Program-made: the position numbers and the translations under genes
NCBI RefSeq assembly: GCF_015482775.1
Contig: NZ_CP058214.1
Coordinates: 682,001 to 746,000, forward strand
Reading direction: 5' to 3'
DNA: 64,000 bases
Source of the DNA: Kaustia mangrovi
Lineage (GTDB): Bacteria; Pseudomonadota; Alphaproteobacteria; Rhizobiales; Im1
Part shown: one piece after another, positions 38,080 through 48,762 of the stretch
Position numbering within the stretch: the first letter of the stretch is position 1
How the letters are laid out: each line of letters opens with the position of its first letter
The notes under the pieces: model-generated
The model's database searches: none
What the model saw: only the letters and a program-made list of their open reading frames with translations
Told to the model about the DNA's origin: nothing

Positions 38080-39492
38080 CTAATGCATGCGTCGCTCATC
38101 GCGCCTGCCGCCCATCTCCGCACCGGCGGATGAGTCGGGAACCGTCAGAGGAACGCGGTATGGCGGCGTGGGCAGGCCGACCGCCCGCTTCATGCGGGCG
38201 ATGACGCCGTGCTGGGCGATCCACGCCGCATACTCCCGGTAGACCGGATCGCGCGAGAGATGCCGCTCCTCCGTCTTCGCCCGGTAGTAGAAGATGACGT
38301 TGAAGCCCGCCAGCATGAGGCAGTGGCGGATGGCATCCTCCGGTGTCCCGATGGTGATGAACGGTACCGATATCAGCCACCAGGCAATGTTCTTCGACAC
38401 ATATTGCGGATGCTTGGTGAAGCGGAACGGTCCGTTGGTGATGATCCCGCGATGGGTCAGGTTCGAGAACCGGATGCCGAACTGCACCGTGCCGAGCGCA
38501 TAGGTCGTGAGCAGCACGATGATGGGAATGGCCCACAGCGCCTTCAGGACCGGTGTGGCGGCCAGCCAGTGGCCCCAATAGACCCCGTCCTCATAGGGCA
38601 GGAAACTCTCCGACAGCATCCCGTAGAACGTGCCGTAGCAAATGAGGCAGACGAGCCAGCCAAGCACCGTCGGGTCGGTCGAGCGGATGTGGGAATCGAA
38701 CAGCCTCAGGGTGAGGAAATATCCGGTGCAGGAAAAGGCCACATCCACGAACCAGACCGTATCGATGAACAGGTTCATGAAGCCAAAGGGCTCGGCCGAG
38801 ACGGTTGCCACCGGATCGTAGCTGACGATGCCCGTCAGATGCGCGACCGCGACCGACAATATGTACTGGTAGAAGAAGATCTTCATGAAGCTGGCGCGCA
38901 AATGATTGCCGAGCTTCGCACGCTCCCCGTCGGGCAGGATGCCGAGCACGAACATGCCGGCGGCATGATAGTCGTCCTCCGGATCGTCCATGAGCCCGTC
39001 GACATACCAGAAATAGGCCGGCGCAAGCACGACGATGGGAACCCAGACACGCCCCAGGAGGTCGTAGACCAGATAGGACGAGCCGTTGGCGAAATAGGGA
39101 AACACCCAGTAGGTGGCCACCATCAGGCCGAATGTGGCCGCCAGCCCGATGAGCTTGACGACGACCCTCTTGAGTCTGGTGGAGAAGGCATCGCGCCGAT
39201 AGGCCATGCCAGCGAAACGCTTGAAGTAGAGCCCCTCCAGAACGATGACGGGAACGGCGATCGCCGCCATGACGATCAGCGTCCGGTCGACCGGGTCGGA
39301 GATCTCGAAGCGGCGCAGGGCGACGACGGTGGCGAACAGACTCGCAAGCGCCGTCCAGTTGATCCAGGTCACGGTCGCCGATTGCGGCCTTCGAACCTCG
39401 ATGTCGGCCTGTCGGGCCTGTGCCCCGGGCGGATTGCTGTCGGCGTGCGCACCCAGCGCGACGCCCCTCTCAACGGAAGCGGTCGGTTTCAT
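38080..39492 (-). CDS. Polytopic membrane protein with ICMT/PEMT-like methyltransferase domain
   Basis: A 470-residue inner-membrane protein with about ten predicted helices. The C-terminal 150 residues resemble isoprenylcysteine/phospholipid methyltransferases: ITNGPFRFTKHPQYVSKNIA gives the RHPxY-type SAM motif (here KHPQY), followed by AWWLISVPF and a terminal amphipathic part with AKTEERHLSRDPVYREYAAW, the usual E-E-R-x-L motif. The N-terminal 300 residues are extra helices not found in standard 150-250-residue ICMT proteins. GGAG eight bases before 39492 fixes the start. The substrate is unknown. It lies 129 bp past the Asn/Gly repeat gene on the same strand. Confidence 0.78.
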   Translation of the reverse strand: MKPTASVERGVALGAHADSNPPGAQARQADIEVRRPQSATVTWINWTALASLFATVVALRRFEISDPVDRTLIVMAAIAVPVIVLEGLYFKRFAGMAYRRDAFSTRLKRVVVKLIGLAATFGLMVATYWVFPYFANGSSYLVYDLLGRVWVPIVVLAPAYFWYVDGLMDDPEDDYHAAGMFVLGILPDGERAKLGNHLRASFMKIFFYQYILSVAVAHLTGIVSYDPVATVSAEPFGFMNLFIDTVWFVDVAFSCTGYFLTLRLFDSHIRSTDPTVLGWLVCLICYGTFYGMLSESFLPYEDGVYWGHWLAATPVLKALWAIPIIVLLTTYALGTVQFGIRFSNLTHRGIITNGPFRFTKHPQYVSKNIAWWLISVPFITIGTPEDAIRHCLMLAGFNVIFYYRAKTEERHLSRDPVYREYAAWIAQHGVIARMKRAVGLPTPPYRVPLTVPDSSAGAEMGGRRDERRMH

Positions 39493-39621
39493 CTTTACGG
39501 CTCCAGAAACGGCTGAAGAGATCGATCTGTCCGGAAACGACCCGCCTGCGGGAGACGGCCATCGAGCCACCTCCCGCAGGCGTCCGCTCCCCCGGGAATT
39601 CAGGGCCGAGGCCACGCGGCC

Positions 39622-40581
39622 TCAGTCGCTGTTGTTCCCGTTGCCGTTATTGCCGTTGTTGCCGTTTCCGTTGTTGCCGTTGTTTCCGGTCCCGTTGTTG
39701 CCGTTGTTGCCGGTCCCGTTGTTCCCGTTATTGCCGGTCCCGTTGTTGCCGTTATTGCCGGTTCCGTTGTTGCCGTTGTTTCCGGTCCCGTTGTTGCCGT
39801 TGTTGCCGGTTCCGTTGTTGCCGTTGTTTCCGGTCCCGTTGTTGCCGTTGTTGCCGGTTCCGTTGTTGCCGTTATTGCCGGTCCCGTTGTTCCCGTTATT
39901 GCCGGTCCCGTTGTTCCCGTTATTGCCGTTTCCGTTGTTGCCGTTGTTACCGTTTCCGTTGTTGCCGTTGTTGCCGTTTCCGTTGTTGCCGTTGTTGCCG
40001 TTTCCGTTGTTGCCGTTGTTGCCGTTTCCGTTGTTGCCGTTGTTGCCGTTTCCGTTGTTGCCGTTGCCGTTGTTCCCGTTCGTGCCGTTTCCGTTGTTGC
40101 CGCTATTGCCGTTGTTTCCGTCGGAACGGCCGGACGAGGCCTCACGGTTCACTTCGGGGCCATTGAATCTCAACGCGCCGCCACACCGCCACTCATAGTC
40201 GCGATACTGGCGCATCGAGAACTCCGCCAGCTGCGACAGCTGCTCGCGGGTCAGGAGACACCGCTCGAGACTGTAATCGCTGGCCACACCGGCGGTCTCA
40301 TCGACCGACCCGGTCGTCAGGACCCCGAATATCGTCGTCCATCCGCCTGATCTGCTTTTTGTATTTGAAGATTTTTCGCCGGTTTTGGATCTGTTGCGGT
40401 AATCGTTTCGGCCGCCATTATTATTGAAATTGGTTTCCGTTTGTCCGGAAAACCGTGACGTGCTGTCTAAACGATCAGATCCCAGTAATGGTCCTGTGGC
40501 CAAATAGGCAACAGAAACCCCTGCCACCACCGCGCCGAGCATCACTCGGGCGGTGGAGCCTTTCAGCTTCCACCGATGCAT
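39622..40581 (-). CDS. Membrane-anchored protein with Asn/Gly tandem-repeat tail
   Basis: A 319-residue protein. A basic head and a hydrophobic segment (about residues 12-33) suggest a signal anchor. Residues 35-150 are Ser/Asn/Arg-rich and include two cysteines (SLERCLLTREQLSQLAEF, YEWRCGG). From about residue 155 to the end the chain is almost only Gly and Asn, in 8-residue units GNNGNNGN and GNNGNNGT (ten of the latter). Asn-Gly pairs deamidate easily. No family is recognised; the tail may be a flexible or sheet-forming surface segment. Its neighbour downstream is an ICMT-like protein. Confidence 0.72.
   Translation of the reverse strand: MHRWKLKGSTARVMLGAVVAGVSVAYLATGPLLGSDRLDSTSRFSGQTETNFNNNGGRNDYRNRSKTGEKSSNTKSRSGGWTTIFGVLTTGSVDETAGVASDYSLERCLLTREQLSQLAEFSMRQYRDYEWRCGGALRFNGPEVNREASSGRSDGNNGNSGNNGNGTNGNNGNGNNGNGNNGNNGNGNNGNNGNGNNGNNGNGNNGNNGNGNNGNNGNGNNGNNGTGNNGNNGTGNNGNNGTGNNGNNGTGNNGNNGTGNNGNNGTGNNGNNGTGNNGNNGTGNNGNNGTGNNGNNGTGNNGNNGNGNNGNNGNGNNSD
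39633..40119. repeat. 24-bp tandem repeat array inside the Asn/Gly repeat gene
   Basis: About 20 copies of a 24-base unit (plus-strand form CCGTTGTTGCCGTTGTTGCC plus four bases), near-perfect. The last codon alternates between Asn (TTT/GTT side) and Thr (GGT side), and synonymous changes are scattered (TTG/TTA, GCC/TCC/CCC). Copy number changes keep the frame, so the array could vary in length between strains. Confidence 0.9.
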
Positions 40582-40850: not shown

Positions 40851-42011
40851 TCAACCGGCCGCAAGATGCCCCTCATACGCACCGTACCCGAAACGCCGCG
40901 CGGCCCCCCCGGTCTCCTCCGCGATCATGGCGAGAGCCGCCTCGTCGAAGCGGGGTTTGTAATAGCCGGGGAACCGGATCGGACGAGCCGCGGCCTCGAG
41001 CCAGCCGTCGTCCGCCTCGAGACCGCAATGCGCCAGCACCGATGCGATGGTCTCCCGCGGCTCCTCGCACAACGTCTCGTAGCGCACCACACGCGTCGCC
41101 TCGCGCAAATCCCCGTCGGCCTCCAGGACATCGGCGAGATGATTGTGGACCAGCGCCCAGTAGCGCGCCCATCCCCTCACCTCCTCGCCCTTGTTCCAGA
41201 GCCGGGCGACATCGGCGACAGCGGCCTCGTCACCGGTATCGATCGCGCGCCGGTCAAGGCCGAACTCGAAATGGCCCACGCGTGCGAGATGGCGCCGGGC
41301 CTTCTCGTTGCCGCGCTGGCCGGTGACGAACAGTTCGTGCTGCTTCATGAGCGAGGCGATGTGCCAGACGGGATCGCGCACCGGCACGATAAAGCGGGCA
41401 TCGGGCGCGATGGTCTTCAGATAGCCGAGCCGGGTGACGTTGTAGTTGCCCTTGGCCACATAGCGGCGCCGGCCGCGCACCGCGAGGAGCTTCCTGAGAT
41501 GGTCGCGATAGAAGGTCTCGAAGGCCGGATTGCGCACGGTCCGGTCGAGCACGGCACTGTGCCCCGGCTCGTGCAGCCCGGGAAAGAACGCCATCCACAG
41601 CATCTCCTCGAACGCCTCCGGGCTGTCGGAGGTCACCGCGATGCCGTCGCCATGGGTGCGCTCGGCGGGCTCCTCCGTCCGTGTCGGGACATGATCGAGC
41701 CACCTGTTCCAGAGATAGGGCGTGAACAGCATCGGATAGTCGCGGTAGCGGTGGGTCGCCACATCGCCATGGCGCGCCAGCGTCTCCAGCAGGATCGTGC
41801 TGCCCGAGCGCGCAAGCCCCGCAATGTAGATCGGCCGGTCGATCCCGATATCGGCAATCGCCTCGCCGACAAGCCTGGTCTCCATGGTGCCGAGCCGGAT
41901 CCACAAACCGGGATGGCGCGAGACGAACCCGCCGAGCCGGTCGACCCAGCCGGCGACCTCGAAGCCGTCGGCGGCCGCGCCACTGGTCTTCTTGCCGGTC
42001 TGTTCGCTCAT
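40851..42011 (-). CDS. Sulfotransferase family protein
   Basis: A 386-residue protein of the PAPS-dependent sulfotransferase fold. IYIAGLARSGSTILLETLA (residues 61-79) is the 5'-phosphosulfate-binding loop, and FIVPVRDPVWHIASLMKQH gives the 3'-phosphate-binding Arg/Ser region. The C-terminal VVRYETLCEEPRETI and YYKPRFDEAAL are usual late motifs. It would move sulfate from PAPS to a sugar or other hydroxyl in the cytosol. It is the last gene of the operon led by an arylsulfotransferase-like gene, 11 bases after the preceding one. The acceptor is unknown. Confidence 0.85.
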   Translation of the reverse strand: MSEQTGKKTSGAAADGFEVAGWVDRLGGFVSRHPGLWIRLGTMETRLVGEAIADIGIDRPIYIAGLARSGSTILLETLARHGDVATHRYRDYPMLFTPYLWNRWLDHVPTRTEEPAERTHGDGIAVTSDSPEAFEEMLWMAFFPGLHEPGHSAVLDRTVRNPAFETFYRDHLRKLLAVRGRRRYVAKGNYNVTRLGYLKTIAPDARFIVPVRDPVWHIASLMKQHELFVTGQRGNEKARRHLARVGHFEFGLDRRAIDTGDEAAVADVARLWNKGEEVRGWARYWALVHNHLADVLEADGDLREATRVVRYETLCEEPRETIASVLAHCGLEADDGWLEAAARPIRFPGYYKPRFDEAALAMIAEETGGAARRFGYGAYEGHLAAG

Positions 42012-42022
42012 GGGGCGTGCCC

Positions 42023-42730
42023 TCACGCGATCCGGGCGACCTTGAAGATCGCGAACGATGCCGCCATGAGAACCGGCAGGAAGAGTGCCAGCCACGTACG
42101 CGCCCATCCGGGCCCCACGGGCAGATAGCTCTTCTGCGGCAGCGCGACCGATACCGCCTCCACCGGCCCGGCATCGGGGAGATAGCCGGCCGGATTGCCG
42201 ATCAGCGCGTTCCACCAATGACGCTTCTCGACGCGCGGCACAGGTGCTTTCAGGGCGACTGTCTGGACGGCATCGCCCGATGGCGAGCGGATCTCGATCC
42301 CCCCGTCGCGCCAGGTTCCGGTGAAGGTCGCAGGCGTGACCGTGACGGCGGGCGCGCTGCCCGGGCCGGGCAGGTCGTGGGCATAGGAGGTGTCGAGCCA
42401 GACCAGCAGGGTCAGCATCGGGAGCGAGGCGGCAAGGGTCGCCGGCAGGACAAGGCCGATATGCCGGAACGACGTCCGGAACAGATTCGCGATCAGCGGA
42501 CCCGCATCGTCGAAATCGCCATCATGCTCGTTGAGCGCGCGCCGGGCGGCCTGTGCCTCGGTCTTGGCGGCCGCGATTCTCGATTGCGGCGACAGCGCCC
42601 AGTAGAGCAGCATGGACGCCCCCGCGCCGAGAAACGCCCACACGATGACCCGCCCGACCGGCGGAATGACACCGGCAAGCACGCCGTCCAGGGCCTCATA
42701 GAGCGGTGCCGGCAAGTCCAGAAAGCCCAT
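42023..42730 (-). CDS. Membrane protein of the sulfotransferase operon
   Basis: A 235-residue protein. One helix near the N-terminus (about residues 25-46) is followed by a cytoplasmic charged helical stretch (AAAKTEAQAARRALNEHDGD), an amphipathic region (LIANLFRTSFRHIGLVLPAT), a second helix (about 90-112), a periplasmic beta-rich domain with PRVEKRHWWNALIGNP, and a last helix (about 212-230). The helix-coil-helix order recalls YidC/EMC3-type insertases, but no family motif confirms this. It lies between the small PGPG protein and a sulfotransferase and is probably a part of one membrane system. Confidence 0.75.
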   Translation of the reverse strand: MGFLDLPAPLYEALDGVLAGVIPPVGRVIVWAFLGAGASMLLYWALSPQSRIAAAKTEAQAARRALNEHDGDFDDAGPLIANLFRTSFRHIGLVLPATLAASLPMLTLLVWLDTSYAHDLPGPGSAPAVTVTPATFTGTWRDGGIEIRSPSGDAVQTVALKAPVPRVEKRHWWNALIGNPAGYLPDAGPVEAVSVALPQKSYLPVGPGWARTWLALFLPVLMAASFAIFKVARIA

Positions 42731-42754
42731 GATATGCGCATTGCCTCCCGCGGA

Positions 42755-43024
42755 TCAGGACGGCCCGGTGCCGGACGTCCGGGGCGCTTCGCCCTCGGCC
42801 GTCTGGGCGCTGGGGCCGCCGGTCCGGGCCTTCTTCCGGCGCAGCATCTTCCGCACGGGCCAGAACAGGACGAAACCCACCGCCATGGCGATGGCGACCA
42901 CAAGCCCCCAGAGCGCGCCGAGCAGGCTGATGCCCGCACCGGGGCCGACATAGGCGGCGGCCGGGGCCGCCATCGCCATCAGGGCCGCAAGGGCTGTGAG
43001 CACGCAAGGGATCTGTCGTCTCAT
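42755..43024 (-). CDS. Small exported/membrane protein with YVGPGAG motif
   Basis: An 89-residue protein. A signal peptide (residues 1-24, ending AAAA) is followed by YVGPGAGISLLGALWGL and a second membrane helix, then WPVRKMLRRKK. This short YxGPGxG-helix-WPxR layout recurs in bacterial small membrane proteins of unknown role, often beside sulfotransferase genes. Its start overlaps the arylsulfotransferase-like stop (ATGA), so production is coupled. Confidence 0.8.
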   Translation of the reverse strand: MRRQIPCVLTALAALMAMAAPAAAYVGPGAGISLLGALWGLVVAIAMAVGFVLFWPVRKMLRRKKARTGGPSAQTAEGEAPRTSGTGPS

Positions 43025-44412
43025 CGGGATGCCTCCTTTTCGTGAGTGAGCGTGGCACGGAAATCGGGAGAGAGCGTGGCCGGATCGATGCGCCGCCCCC
43101 AGGAGACGACCGGGGCGTAGGCACCGCCCTCCCCGTCCCTGACGGGATTGATGTATTCCCAGACGATGTTCCCGTCGCCGGTCACCTCGAGAAGCCGGCT
43201 GCCATTCGATTCCGTCACCAGCGTATTGCCGTTGGGCAGACGCTGGGCGCCCGACCGTATGGCACTGTCGAGGGGCTTGTCCGCGCTCCCCTTATAGGTC
43301 CAGCGGACCGCCATCGTTTCGGGGTCGAACTCGATGACCCGCGAGCTGTTGCCCTGCTCGAAGTTACCCAGATTGTCGAACATCAGGATGTGACCGTCCG
43401 GGAGAATGGTCGGGCTGTGCTGGCCGACCCAGGGCCCCCGCGTCGCCCAGGTCACCTTGCCCTCGTCCATGTCGACCACGGCGATGACGCCCATGTCGCG
43501 AAACGACACGAGCACGTCGCCCTCCTTGCCGAAGGGGAAGACCCGCGCCTTGTCCGCGTCGATATATTCGACCGTGTTGGTGTGCAGCGGATCGCCGAGC
43601 GAGAAGCTCGGAATGGCGTATAAGAAGGCCGCATAGGGCGAGGACAGCAGCGCATCGGTCAGCGAGACCTTGCGCGTCTCGCGCCCGTCGCCATCGAGCA
43701 CCACGACGAAATCGTCGAGCCGCGGCTTGCCCAGCGCGTCGAACCCCTTGACCGGCTCGGAGGTGAAAGCATGGGTCAGCGCGAAGACCCGCCCATCGGG
43801 CGCCACGTCGAAATCGTGATGGGTCTGGCCGAAATAGCGCCAGACGACGTTGGAGTCCTTGTCGAGGCGGACCATGCCGTAGCCCCATGGCGTCTCGCCC
43901 GCGGCGATGTAGATCGCCAGCAGGTCGCCATTGGGCATGAGCCGGGCCTTGCGCATATAGGTCAGTTCGTCGCGCTGGGGCGAGGAGACCGGCGAGCTCT
44001 CGTCCCAGACCTCCGAGAAGGACTTGCGCCATTCGTGCACGACCTCTCCGGTCATGGAGACGAGCCGTGCGGCGGGCGCGTCGCCGGAGGTGTAGAGCGT
44101 ATAGCCGCCAAAGGCGCGCTGCCGGTCGAAGGCGGTCACGCCGCTCGCATTGCCGCGCGCCTTTGTCCAGAGGTCGGTCCCGAACTTGTCCGCCGTCATC
44201 TCGCGCTGGGCAATCAGCGCCTGGCCCGCCGCATAGGCGTCATGCAGGACCTGGTAGGGAAACACCTTGCCGAGCACCACCAGAGCGCCGCCCACAAAGG
44301 CGAGAAAGACGATCATGGCGATGAAGATCGCCTGTCCGATCCGTTCGCCCGCGGATCCGCCCGCTGTCTCCTTGTCGTCTTGCGACACCGCAATGCCCGG
44401 CGAACCCGCCAT
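43021..44412 (-). CDS. Arylsulfotransferase (ASST) family protein
   Basis: A 463-residue protein anchored by one N-terminal helix (about residues 28-50), with a periplasmic propeller. ASST-type histidine motifs are seen: FGQTHHDFDVAPDG, PLHTNTVEYID, VGQHSPTILPDGHILMFDNLGN and RLPNGNTLVTESNGSRL. True ASSTs move sulfate between phenolic esters without PAPS through a histidine intermediate; whether all needed residues are here is not settled. It is the first gene of a four-gene operon ending in a PAPS-type sulfotransferase. Confidence 0.85.
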   Translation of the reverse strand: MAGSPGIAVSQDDKETAGGSAGERIGQAIFIAMIVFLAFVGGALVVLGKVFPYQVLHDAYAAGQALIAQREMTADKFGTDLWTKARGNASGVTAFDRQRAFGGYTLYTSGDAPAARLVSMTGEVVHEWRKSFSEVWDESSPVSSPQRDELTYMRKARLMPNGDLLAIYIAAGETPWGYGMVRLDKDSNVVWRYFGQTHHDFDVAPDGRVFALTHAFTSEPVKGFDALGKPRLDDFVVVLDGDGRETRKVSLTDALLSSPYAAFLYAIPSFSLGDPLHTNTVEYIDADKARVFPFGKEGDVLVSFRDMGVIAVVDMDEGKVTWATRGPWVGQHSPTILPDGHILMFDNLGNFEQGNSSRVIEFDPETMAVRWTYKGSADKPLDSAIRSGAQRLPNGNTLVTESNGSRLLEVTGDGNIVWEYINPVRDGEGGAYAPVVSWGRRIDPATLSPDFRATLTHEKEASR

Positions 44413-47719: not shown

Positions 47720-48550
47720 TCAGGCCCTCTCTGCCTGCGGCTGTGGCTGCAGGGTCGTGCCGTTTCCGGGCGCATAGAGCCACGGGCTCTGGCGTGGGCT
47801 GGCCGATGCCTCCCTGAGACAGGCATTCAGGGTCTCGAAATAGTCGAGACGCTCCATCAGCCCGTCGCAGAACGCGATATCCTCTGCACTCATCTCGGTG
47901 CGGTAGCCGCCAGCCTTGCCCTGACGGACCTTGAAGCTGTTGGGATCCTTCGGATCGCCAGGCGTCAGGATATCCCCGTAGCGCTCGCTGTACTCGCCGC
48001 GCGCCTCGCGCTCGCGCATCCGCTCCAGCCGGCACTCCTCGACGGCCTTGCCGACCGCAGCGCTGGAGCGCTGAGCCCCGAAGAACGCCGCGATTCCGGC
48101 CAGCGCGTCTTCCGTGTCGGCGCGCAGATGCTCGTAGGTCGCGATCCCCATGAACGGCTCGGCGCGCGCCTGCTGCGCCCAGAAGAGATTGTAGCGGATG
48201 ATGGTCTCGATCCCCATGGCGGGATCGCGCACGAGGTCGCCGAGACTGTCGAGCTGGCGACCTTCCCGCTTGAGGTGGGAATGATAGGCGGAGACGACCA
48301 CGTCGCGCGGGTCGCGCACCAGCACTAGAACATGGCGGTAGCGCCGCGGCACGCGGCGGTCGCGCTCGGTGAGGACGGTCGGCTGCTTGTAGTTGGCGTG
48401 GAAATAGCGCGCCGGGATATCGAGTTCGTCGAGCATGACCCGGAGCCAGGTCCGCCCGGATTTCGGAAAGGACAGCACGAGATTGTCACGCAGGAACAGG
48501 CGCTGCTCGACCTGCAGCCAGTCCTTCACAGAGGCAATCGGATTACGCAT
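47720..48550 (-). CDS. Sulfotransferase domain protein
   Basis: A 276-residue PAPS-dependent sulfotransferase. The 5'-phosphosulfate loop is LSFPKSGRTWLRVML (residues 26-40), and the 3'-phosphate motif is VLVRDPRDVVVSAYHSH (about 77-91). The late RxGKAGGY motif appears as VRQGKAGGYRTEM, a core sulfotransferase signature that the other sulfotransferase here lacks. This one is therefore closer to the cytosolic alcohol-sulfotransferase type. An upstream ATG at 48601 could extend it by 17 residues. The acceptor is unknown. Confidence 0.9.
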   Translation of the reverse strand: MRNPIASVKDWLQVEQRLFLRDNLVLSFPKSGRTWLRVMLDELDIPARYFHANYKQPTVLTERDRRVPRRYRHVLVLVRDPRDVVVSAYHSHLKREGRQLDSLGDLVRDPAMGIETIIRYNLFWAQQARAEPFMGIATYEHLRADTEDALAGIAAFFGAQRSSAAVGKAVEECRLERMREREARGEYSERYGDILTPGDPKDPNSFKVRQGKAGGYRTEMSAEDIAFCDGLMERLDYFETLNACLREASASPRQSPWLYAPGNGTTLQPQPQAERA

Positions 48551-48762
48551 ATGAATGTCCCGGATCGAGTCCTTGGCGGTTTCGGATCTGGGCTCCAACA
48601 TACTGTTTGGTTTATGCGGGCGTAACCCGTCCACGAGGAATTTTTGGAAAACGGTGCGTGGGCGGACAATCCAGAGAGCCCGATACTCCTTTACGCCCGG
48701 GACCCGTACGACTAAACCTCAAGAGACATTGTCCTTGCCGGCCACGCGACGGGAGAGGCCAT

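Follow-up and report, generated by a model that had tools for sequence, protein, structure and literature searches.

Most bacterial arylsulfate sulfotransferases (ASSTs) are without known natural substrates or physiological roles, as noted in a 2026 review (PMC13426309). Caprazamycin biosynthesis offers the closest described case. There, in the account that PMC4257720 gives with reference to Tang et al. 2013, the sulfotransferase Cpz8 uses 3′-phosphoadenosine-5′-phosphosulfate (PAPS) to make a phenolic sulfate, which is used in turn by the ASST Cpz4. The carrier in that pathway is made by a type III polyketide synthase (PKS). Here we describe a locus of Kaustia mangrovi in which an ASST-like protein is encoded together with a PAPS-type sulfotransferase (ST) and two membrane proteins of orphan families, called here the YVG protein and P3mem. 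The window, meaning the whole stretch of DNA that was analysed, spans 64,000 nucleotides (NCBI RefSeq assembly GCF_015482775.1, contig NZ_CP058214.1, positions 682,001 to 746,000).

A conserved four-gene cassette

The ASST-like protein, the YVG protein, P3mem and the ST are encoded in this order by four consecutive minus-strand open reading frames (ORFs) of the window. The ASST stop and the YVG start are joined as an ATGA overlap, and spacers of 24 bp and 11 bp separate YVG from P3mem and P3mem from the ST, respectively. The ORFs, the overlap and both gaps are all present as the preliminary description of this DNA had given them. The features of the cassette are:

43021..44412, (-): ASST-like sulfotransferase, 463 aa (PF14269, PF05935; AlphaFold2 model, structure matches and residue mapping)
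43417..43419, (-): codon of H332; in hidden Markov model (HMM) and hhalign alignments to 3ELQ/AssT, this residue pairs with His436 of E. coli AssT, the catalytic histidine that is sulfated
42755..43024, (-): YVG protein, 89 aa, orphan family; an AYVGPGAG loop between two hydrophobic helices, and a K/R-rich C terminus
42950..42952, (-): codon of YVG-protein residue Tyr25, which directly follows A-x-A and is invariant in 27/27 aligned relatives
42023..42730, (-): P3mem, 235 aa, orphan family; transmembrane (TM) helix TM1, K/R-rich two-helix hairpin, TM2, beta domain and TM3, from an AlphaFold2 model, flanking charges and conservation
40851..42011, (-): PAPS-type sulfotransferase, 386 aa counted from ATG (PF13469; PAPS-site residues invariant)

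These four genes form a real conserved cassette. A survey of 249 genomes in the order found P3mem in seven, and the six besides K. mangrovi carry the identical four genes in identical order (6/6). A scan of 85,000 species with the ASST alignment returned 80 loci, and all four genes lie side by side in 27 of them. These 27 are distributed over Alphaproteobacteria (Mesorhizobium, Thalassospira, Pelagibius, Lutibaculum, Methyloligella and Parvibaculum), Gammaproteobacteria (Nitrococcus, Thiogranum and Sinimarinibacterium) and Desulfobacterota (Desulfatitalea and another Desulfobacteraceae). Altogether, about 30 loci in these three lineages have the adjacent set. Recurrence in all six relatives within the order and in 27 of the scan loci indicates that the arrangement is not due to chance. 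The flanking genes vary between genomes, which marks the cassette as self-contained, and its linkage survives rearrangement, since two Mesorhizobium loci (L022, L024) have the changed order YVG-P3mem-ST-ASST.

Co-occurrence at the genome level is consistent with this picture. Among 289 genomes sampled evenly from the class, six encode P3mem, and each of the six also has an ASST of the cassette's family, compared with 18 of the 289 overall; by our arithmetic, the hypergeometric chance of this overlap is ~2e-8. YVG proteins occur in 15 genomes of this sample, ten of them ASST genomes. P3mem is found in 32 of 40 ASST-bearing genomes, and the specific ST accompanies it in 32/32; because this set was chosen for the ASST, it measures the linkage of P3mem to the ST and not to the ASST. 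The four proteins also have correlated pairwise distances across 24 cassettes (r values of 0.71-0.85; p 0.001 by permutation). The preliminary description had named rarity of the four families together as grounds for abandoning its proposal; instead, they co-occur strongly.

The genes of the cassette differ in copy number. P3mem occurs once per genome in 32 genomes, except for one genome with two full cassettes, whereas ASSTs number one to three per genome, giving 49 ASSTs against 33 P3mem proteins by our count, and P3mem outnumbers the ASST in none of the 32. At one locus (L050), three tandem ASSTs precede a single YVG-P3mem-ST set, and another (L033) has two ASSTs. In three further genomes (G552, G554, G557), YVG-P3mem-ST stands without an adjoining ASST, with three ASSTs elsewhere; the G554 contig is short, and its end limits this observation. 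In G479, YVG adjoins the ST and the ASSTs lie elsewhere. These copy numbers and unlinked modules suggest that YVG–P3mem–ST is a donor-supply module, usually present once per genome and shared by one or more ASSTs.

Divergent ASSTs in G300, G453 and G464 (loci L171-L173) likewise have YVG and a PAPS sulfotransferase as neighbours. Between these two, or fused to the ST N terminus, is a small membrane protein of three helices. Despite having the position and helix layout of P3mem, these proteins have no similarity to it in sequence; they were rejected as its homologues and are regarded as positional analogues only.

Predicted properties of the four proteins

The ASST matches PF14269 (8.5e-25) and PF05935 (4e-10), over cut-off, and comprises an N-terminal TM helix (~29-47) and a beta-propeller (~88-449). 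Its sequence similarity to characterised ASSTs is weak (best E 1e-6). The AlphaFold2 model, for which an alignment of 58 relatives was the input, has a predicted local distance difference test score (pLDDT) of 93. The top VIA-align match of this model is Cpz4 (9kf6/9kf4; Z 32.7, 313 residues, 2.7 A, 20% identity), followed by E. coli AssT (3ets/3elq; Z 26.4), while propellers other than ASSTs score Z 22 or lower. The active-site residues listed for AssT (PMC13426309), H252, H356, N358, R374 and H436, align with H199, H277, N279, R305 and H332 of the window's protein. This mapping used HMM alignment, local hhalign and MAFFT, with the full AssT sequence taken from an E. coli record that contains a stretch identical to a piece of 3ELQ. 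All 58 relatives share H199, H277, N279 and H332, and 52 of the 58 keep R305. By predicted fold and residue alignment, the propeller is thus a genuine ASST with its catalytic histidine kept; absence of this histidine, which the preliminary description had singled out as fatal to its proposal, is not what the alignments give. The window's ASST has no cysteine, and the cysteine share is 0.18% in ASST propellers versus 0.89% in the ST; such a cysteine-poor propeller fits an exported protein.

Two Chelativorans loci (L026:8867-11380, L027:8885-11386) encode an ASST with a 346-residue N-terminal extension that is 90% identical between the two species. This extension looks like a multi-TM membrane protein and is in frame with the ASST.

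The ST matches PF13469 (1.4e-17) and also PF00685, and no TM helix is found in it. Both parts of the PAPS site are kept. In the 5′-phosphosulfate loop GLARSG(S/T)T (GLARSGST in the window), all 24 sequences share R68, G70 and T72, and outside it they all share K187, R212 and S220, of which R212 and S220 belong to the 3′-phosphate site. Profile searches reach the tyrosylprotein sulfotransferases (TPST) as the nearest solved relatives (E 3e-5). A strong match to adenosine 5′-phosphosulfate kinase (E < 1e-50) is present in 29 of the 32 cassette genomes, including that of the window.

The YVG protein consists of a hydrophobic helix, an uncharged AYVGPGAG loop, a second helix and a strongly basic tail. 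Its loop is predicted to lie outside because of this charge distribution, with a charge-free loop and a basic tail. All 27 relatives share A22, A24, Y25, G27, P28, A48 and P56. The window's protein falls below every Pfam and NCBIfam cut-off, and a scan of the 27 relatives gave scattered weak family matches only. YVG is the gene most constantly beside the ST, including where no ASST is near.

P3mem, which the preliminary description had called a helix-coil-helix protein, is refined by the AlphaFold2 model (pLDDT 91) to three TM helices with a basic two-helix hairpin between TM1 and TM2 and a beta domain between TM2 and TM3. Its N terminus is acidic, and its hairpin and C terminus are basic, a pattern that predicts an N-out topology with the hairpin inside, the beta domain outside and the C terminus inside. 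A fusion in G479, in which P3mem is preceded by a phosphodiesterase domain whose N terminus is signal-like, fits this topology. The window's P3mem is below every Pfam and NCBIfam cut-off, and a scan of 30 relatives yielded only scattered weak family matches. The layout of TM1, cytosolic hairpin, TM2 and TM3 in the model resembles the Oxa1 superfamily. Assignment to that superfamily (EMC3/TMCO1/YidC-like) is suggested by this layout but was set aside, as the best Foldseek match has an E of 0.13 and Pfam gives no support.

Both membrane families also occur with phosphodiesterases. A YVG domain is N-terminal to a PF01663 phosphodiesterase at three loci (L057:10952-16140, L093:2703-7108, L174:771-5902), with a second PF01663 protein after the fusion in L057 and L093 and a P3mem relative near it in L057 and L174. 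At L115:8209-10971, a PF01663 phosphodiesterase is fused directly to P3mem. Judging from these fusions and neighbours, the YVG and P3mem families appear to have a part in another system as well, one based on phosphodiesterases.

A proposed sulfation relay and its alternatives

Our best reading, to which we give about an even chance, is that the cassette relays sulfate in two steps at the inner membrane, with YVG-P3mem-ST as one shared donor supply. The soluble ST would sulfate a carrier in the cytosol from PAPS, probably on a phenolic group. The YVG hairpin and P3mem may then hold the activated aryl sulfate or pass it across the membrane. The membrane-anchored ASST would take up the sulfuryl group on H332 and pass it on at the outer side, where a glycan or lipid of the surface is the probable acceptor, and extra ASSTs in one genome would draw on the single YVG-P3mem-ST set for other acceptors. 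The two-step sulfation of caprazamycin provides an experimental precedent for such a relay. We infer the relay, its carrier, direction and acceptor, and the location of the ASST, from gene content, conservation, predicted fold, active-site residues and linkage. The relay that the preliminary description had proposed is thereby retained, on the strength of the co-occurrence and the conserved catalytic histidine; the role it gave to the membrane proteins as transfer route stays conjectural, as do carrier and acceptor.

Several observations weigh against a relay. T501 of AssT aligns with R386, in a weakly aligning region, and is apparently not conserved. The charges flanking the ASST helix favour neither orientation clearly (20 versus 19 of 58 relatives), and the distance correlation among the four proteins arises partly from shared species history. 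Neither Foldseek nor Pfam gave P3mem a relative whose function is known. Three genomes of one genus (G510, G414, G287; loci L141, L142) have an ASST scoring 400-437 bits without ST or P3mem; an ASST can therefore exist without the module, and the donor there must come from elsewhere. Type III PKS (PF02797) is over cut-off in 15 of 40 genomes and beside the cassette in none, and the window's genome has none over cut-off. Being unlinked to the cassettes, this enzyme was rejected as the carrier source, so the carrier would be something general or a member of the cassette itself.

The alternatives differ in which part of the relay they remove. It is very improbable that the propeller is non-catalytic or acts differently, leaving the PAPS enzyme alone to sulfate a surface molecule: all five active-site residues are kept, four of them in every relative, and ASSTs lead the structure comparison well above the next fold, although overall similarity to characterised ASSTs is weak and T501 seems not to be kept. 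Scavenging, in which the ASST removes or re-uses the sulfate of external aryl sulfates and the ST detoxifies phenols, has a parallel in the proposal that AssT of uropathogenic E. coli uses host phenolic sulfates (PMC13426309), and some genomes do contain the ASST alone. Nevertheless, why an ASST should be so tightly linked to a PAPS enzyme and a pair of dedicated membrane proteins, in hosts that are mostly free-living, is left unexplained, and we regard scavenging as quite improbable. A rather unlikely but more serious contender is that ST and ASST sulfate two positions, or successive intermediates, of one product, with YVG and P3mem as scaffolds or export parts. Co-occurrence and shared history are equally compatible with a relay and with such parallel steps, and a second PAPS sulfotransferase lies in the glycan-related neighbourhood of the window. 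However, ASSTs require a sulfate-ester donor from some source, and the nearest solved relative, Cpz4, acts in a relay. One ST for several ASSTs, and ST modules without a neighbouring ASST, also fit a shared donor better.

The YVG protein may itself be the carrier, if the TPST-like ST sulfates the invariant tyrosine of AYVGPGAG and protein-bound sulfotyrosine serves as donor for the ASST or ASSTs. The tyrosine is kept also in distant relatives, and the cassette contains no gene for carrier synthesis; the constant presence of YVG beside the ST and the kinship of the ST with tyrosylprotein sulfotransferases agree with this possibility. Yet the predicted periplasmic position of the loop would place it away from PAPS, the tyrosine follows an A-x-A site and may be kept for processing, and YVG domains with the same tyrosine are fused to phosphodiesterases in loci without such an ST. 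We consider a protein carrier improbable, and give the same low standing to its fuller version, in which YVG feeds one or several ASSTs with P3mem as membrane gate. If it holds, sulfated YVG would be the sulfate counterpart of carrier-protein relays.

Acceptor, significance and comparison with known systems

Near the cassette, the window encodes a TylF-type methyltransferase and a 2-oxoglutarate (2OG) oxygenase, together with a glycosyltransferase and another PAPS sulfotransferase. Two nearby ORFs are:

47723-48634, (-): second PAPS-type sulfotransferase (PF00685), ~3.3 kb upstream of the cassette, amid genes for the TylF methyltransferase, the 2OG oxygenase and the glycosyltransferase
39622-40581, (-): ORF with a long NGNNG(N/T)GNN repeat as its C-terminal half, adjoining an ICMT-like methyltransferase (38083-39615)

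In Mesorhizobium, Chelativorans, Nitrococcus and a KSB1 bacterium, the ASST lies beside a short-chain dehydrogenase/reductase (SDR) and, variously, UbiA-HAD, an FAD_binding_4 oxidoreductase and other membrane proteins. At six loci (L022, L024, L026, L027, L054, L099), an ASST, alone or with the cassette, stands beside an SDR and at least one of UbiA-HAD, FAD_binding_4, LPG_synthase_TM and DUF4185. These neighbouring genes presumably resemble the decaprenylphosphoryl-arabinose pathway. Taken together, the genes neighbouring the cassette and the ASSTs make a sulfated surface glycan or glycolipid a plausible acceptor.

For a large group of ASSTs, the cassette offers a testable answer, namely that the donor is made by the cell itself. 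A relay of this kind, if true, would explain how sulfate esters are added outside the inner membrane from a cytosolic donor without export of PAPS. Our analysis also defines two unnamed membrane-protein families whose role becomes predictable, and an ASST with its supply module could serve enzymatic sulfation.

Among known systems, the AssT-DsbL-DsbI operon of uropathogenic E. coli (PF05935) shares with the cassette a beta-propeller ASST and the equivalents of H436, H252, H356, N358 and R374. In contrast, the cassette has no Dsb genes, and the window's ASST is cysteine-free, hence without a disulfide, is PF14269-type, is partnered with a PAPS sulfotransferase and is modelled without the N-terminal beta-sandwich domain of AssT. 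The ST distantly matches the nodulation sulfotransferase NoeE but is not a NoeE, as it scores 32 bits against a cut-off of 500 for NCBIfam NF052394. Nodulation sulfotransferases use PAPS directly and are not known to involve an ASST. Glycopeptide clusters (teg19, aba19) likewise combine an ASST-family gene with further putative sulfotransferases; they serve antibiotic tailoring, and the portions of PMC11727664 that describe them do not mention YVG or P3mem proteins.

The preliminary description knew of no described system with this gene set. That holds for the cassette of Gram-negative bacteria and its pair of membrane families, since no description of the cassette or of PF14269 operons was found in open-licence PMC papers, and fails for the pairing of an ASST with a PAPS sulfotransferase in a relay, which caprazamycin already exemplifies. 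Two-step sulfation chemistry is therefore not new, whereas the membrane cassette and its two orphan families are apparently undescribed. Like the cassette, the caprazamycin/liposidomycin clusters of Streptomyces encode a PAPS sulfotransferase and an ASST together, and Cpz4 is the nearest solved fold to the window's ASST, with the active-site arginine and histidine aligned. The Streptomyces system draws on a pyrone carrier from its type III PKS, whereas no such enzyme lies within or near the cassette. Only the cassette has the two additional membrane-protein families and an ASST with its own membrane helix, and it resides in Gram-negative bacteria, among varied flanking genes.

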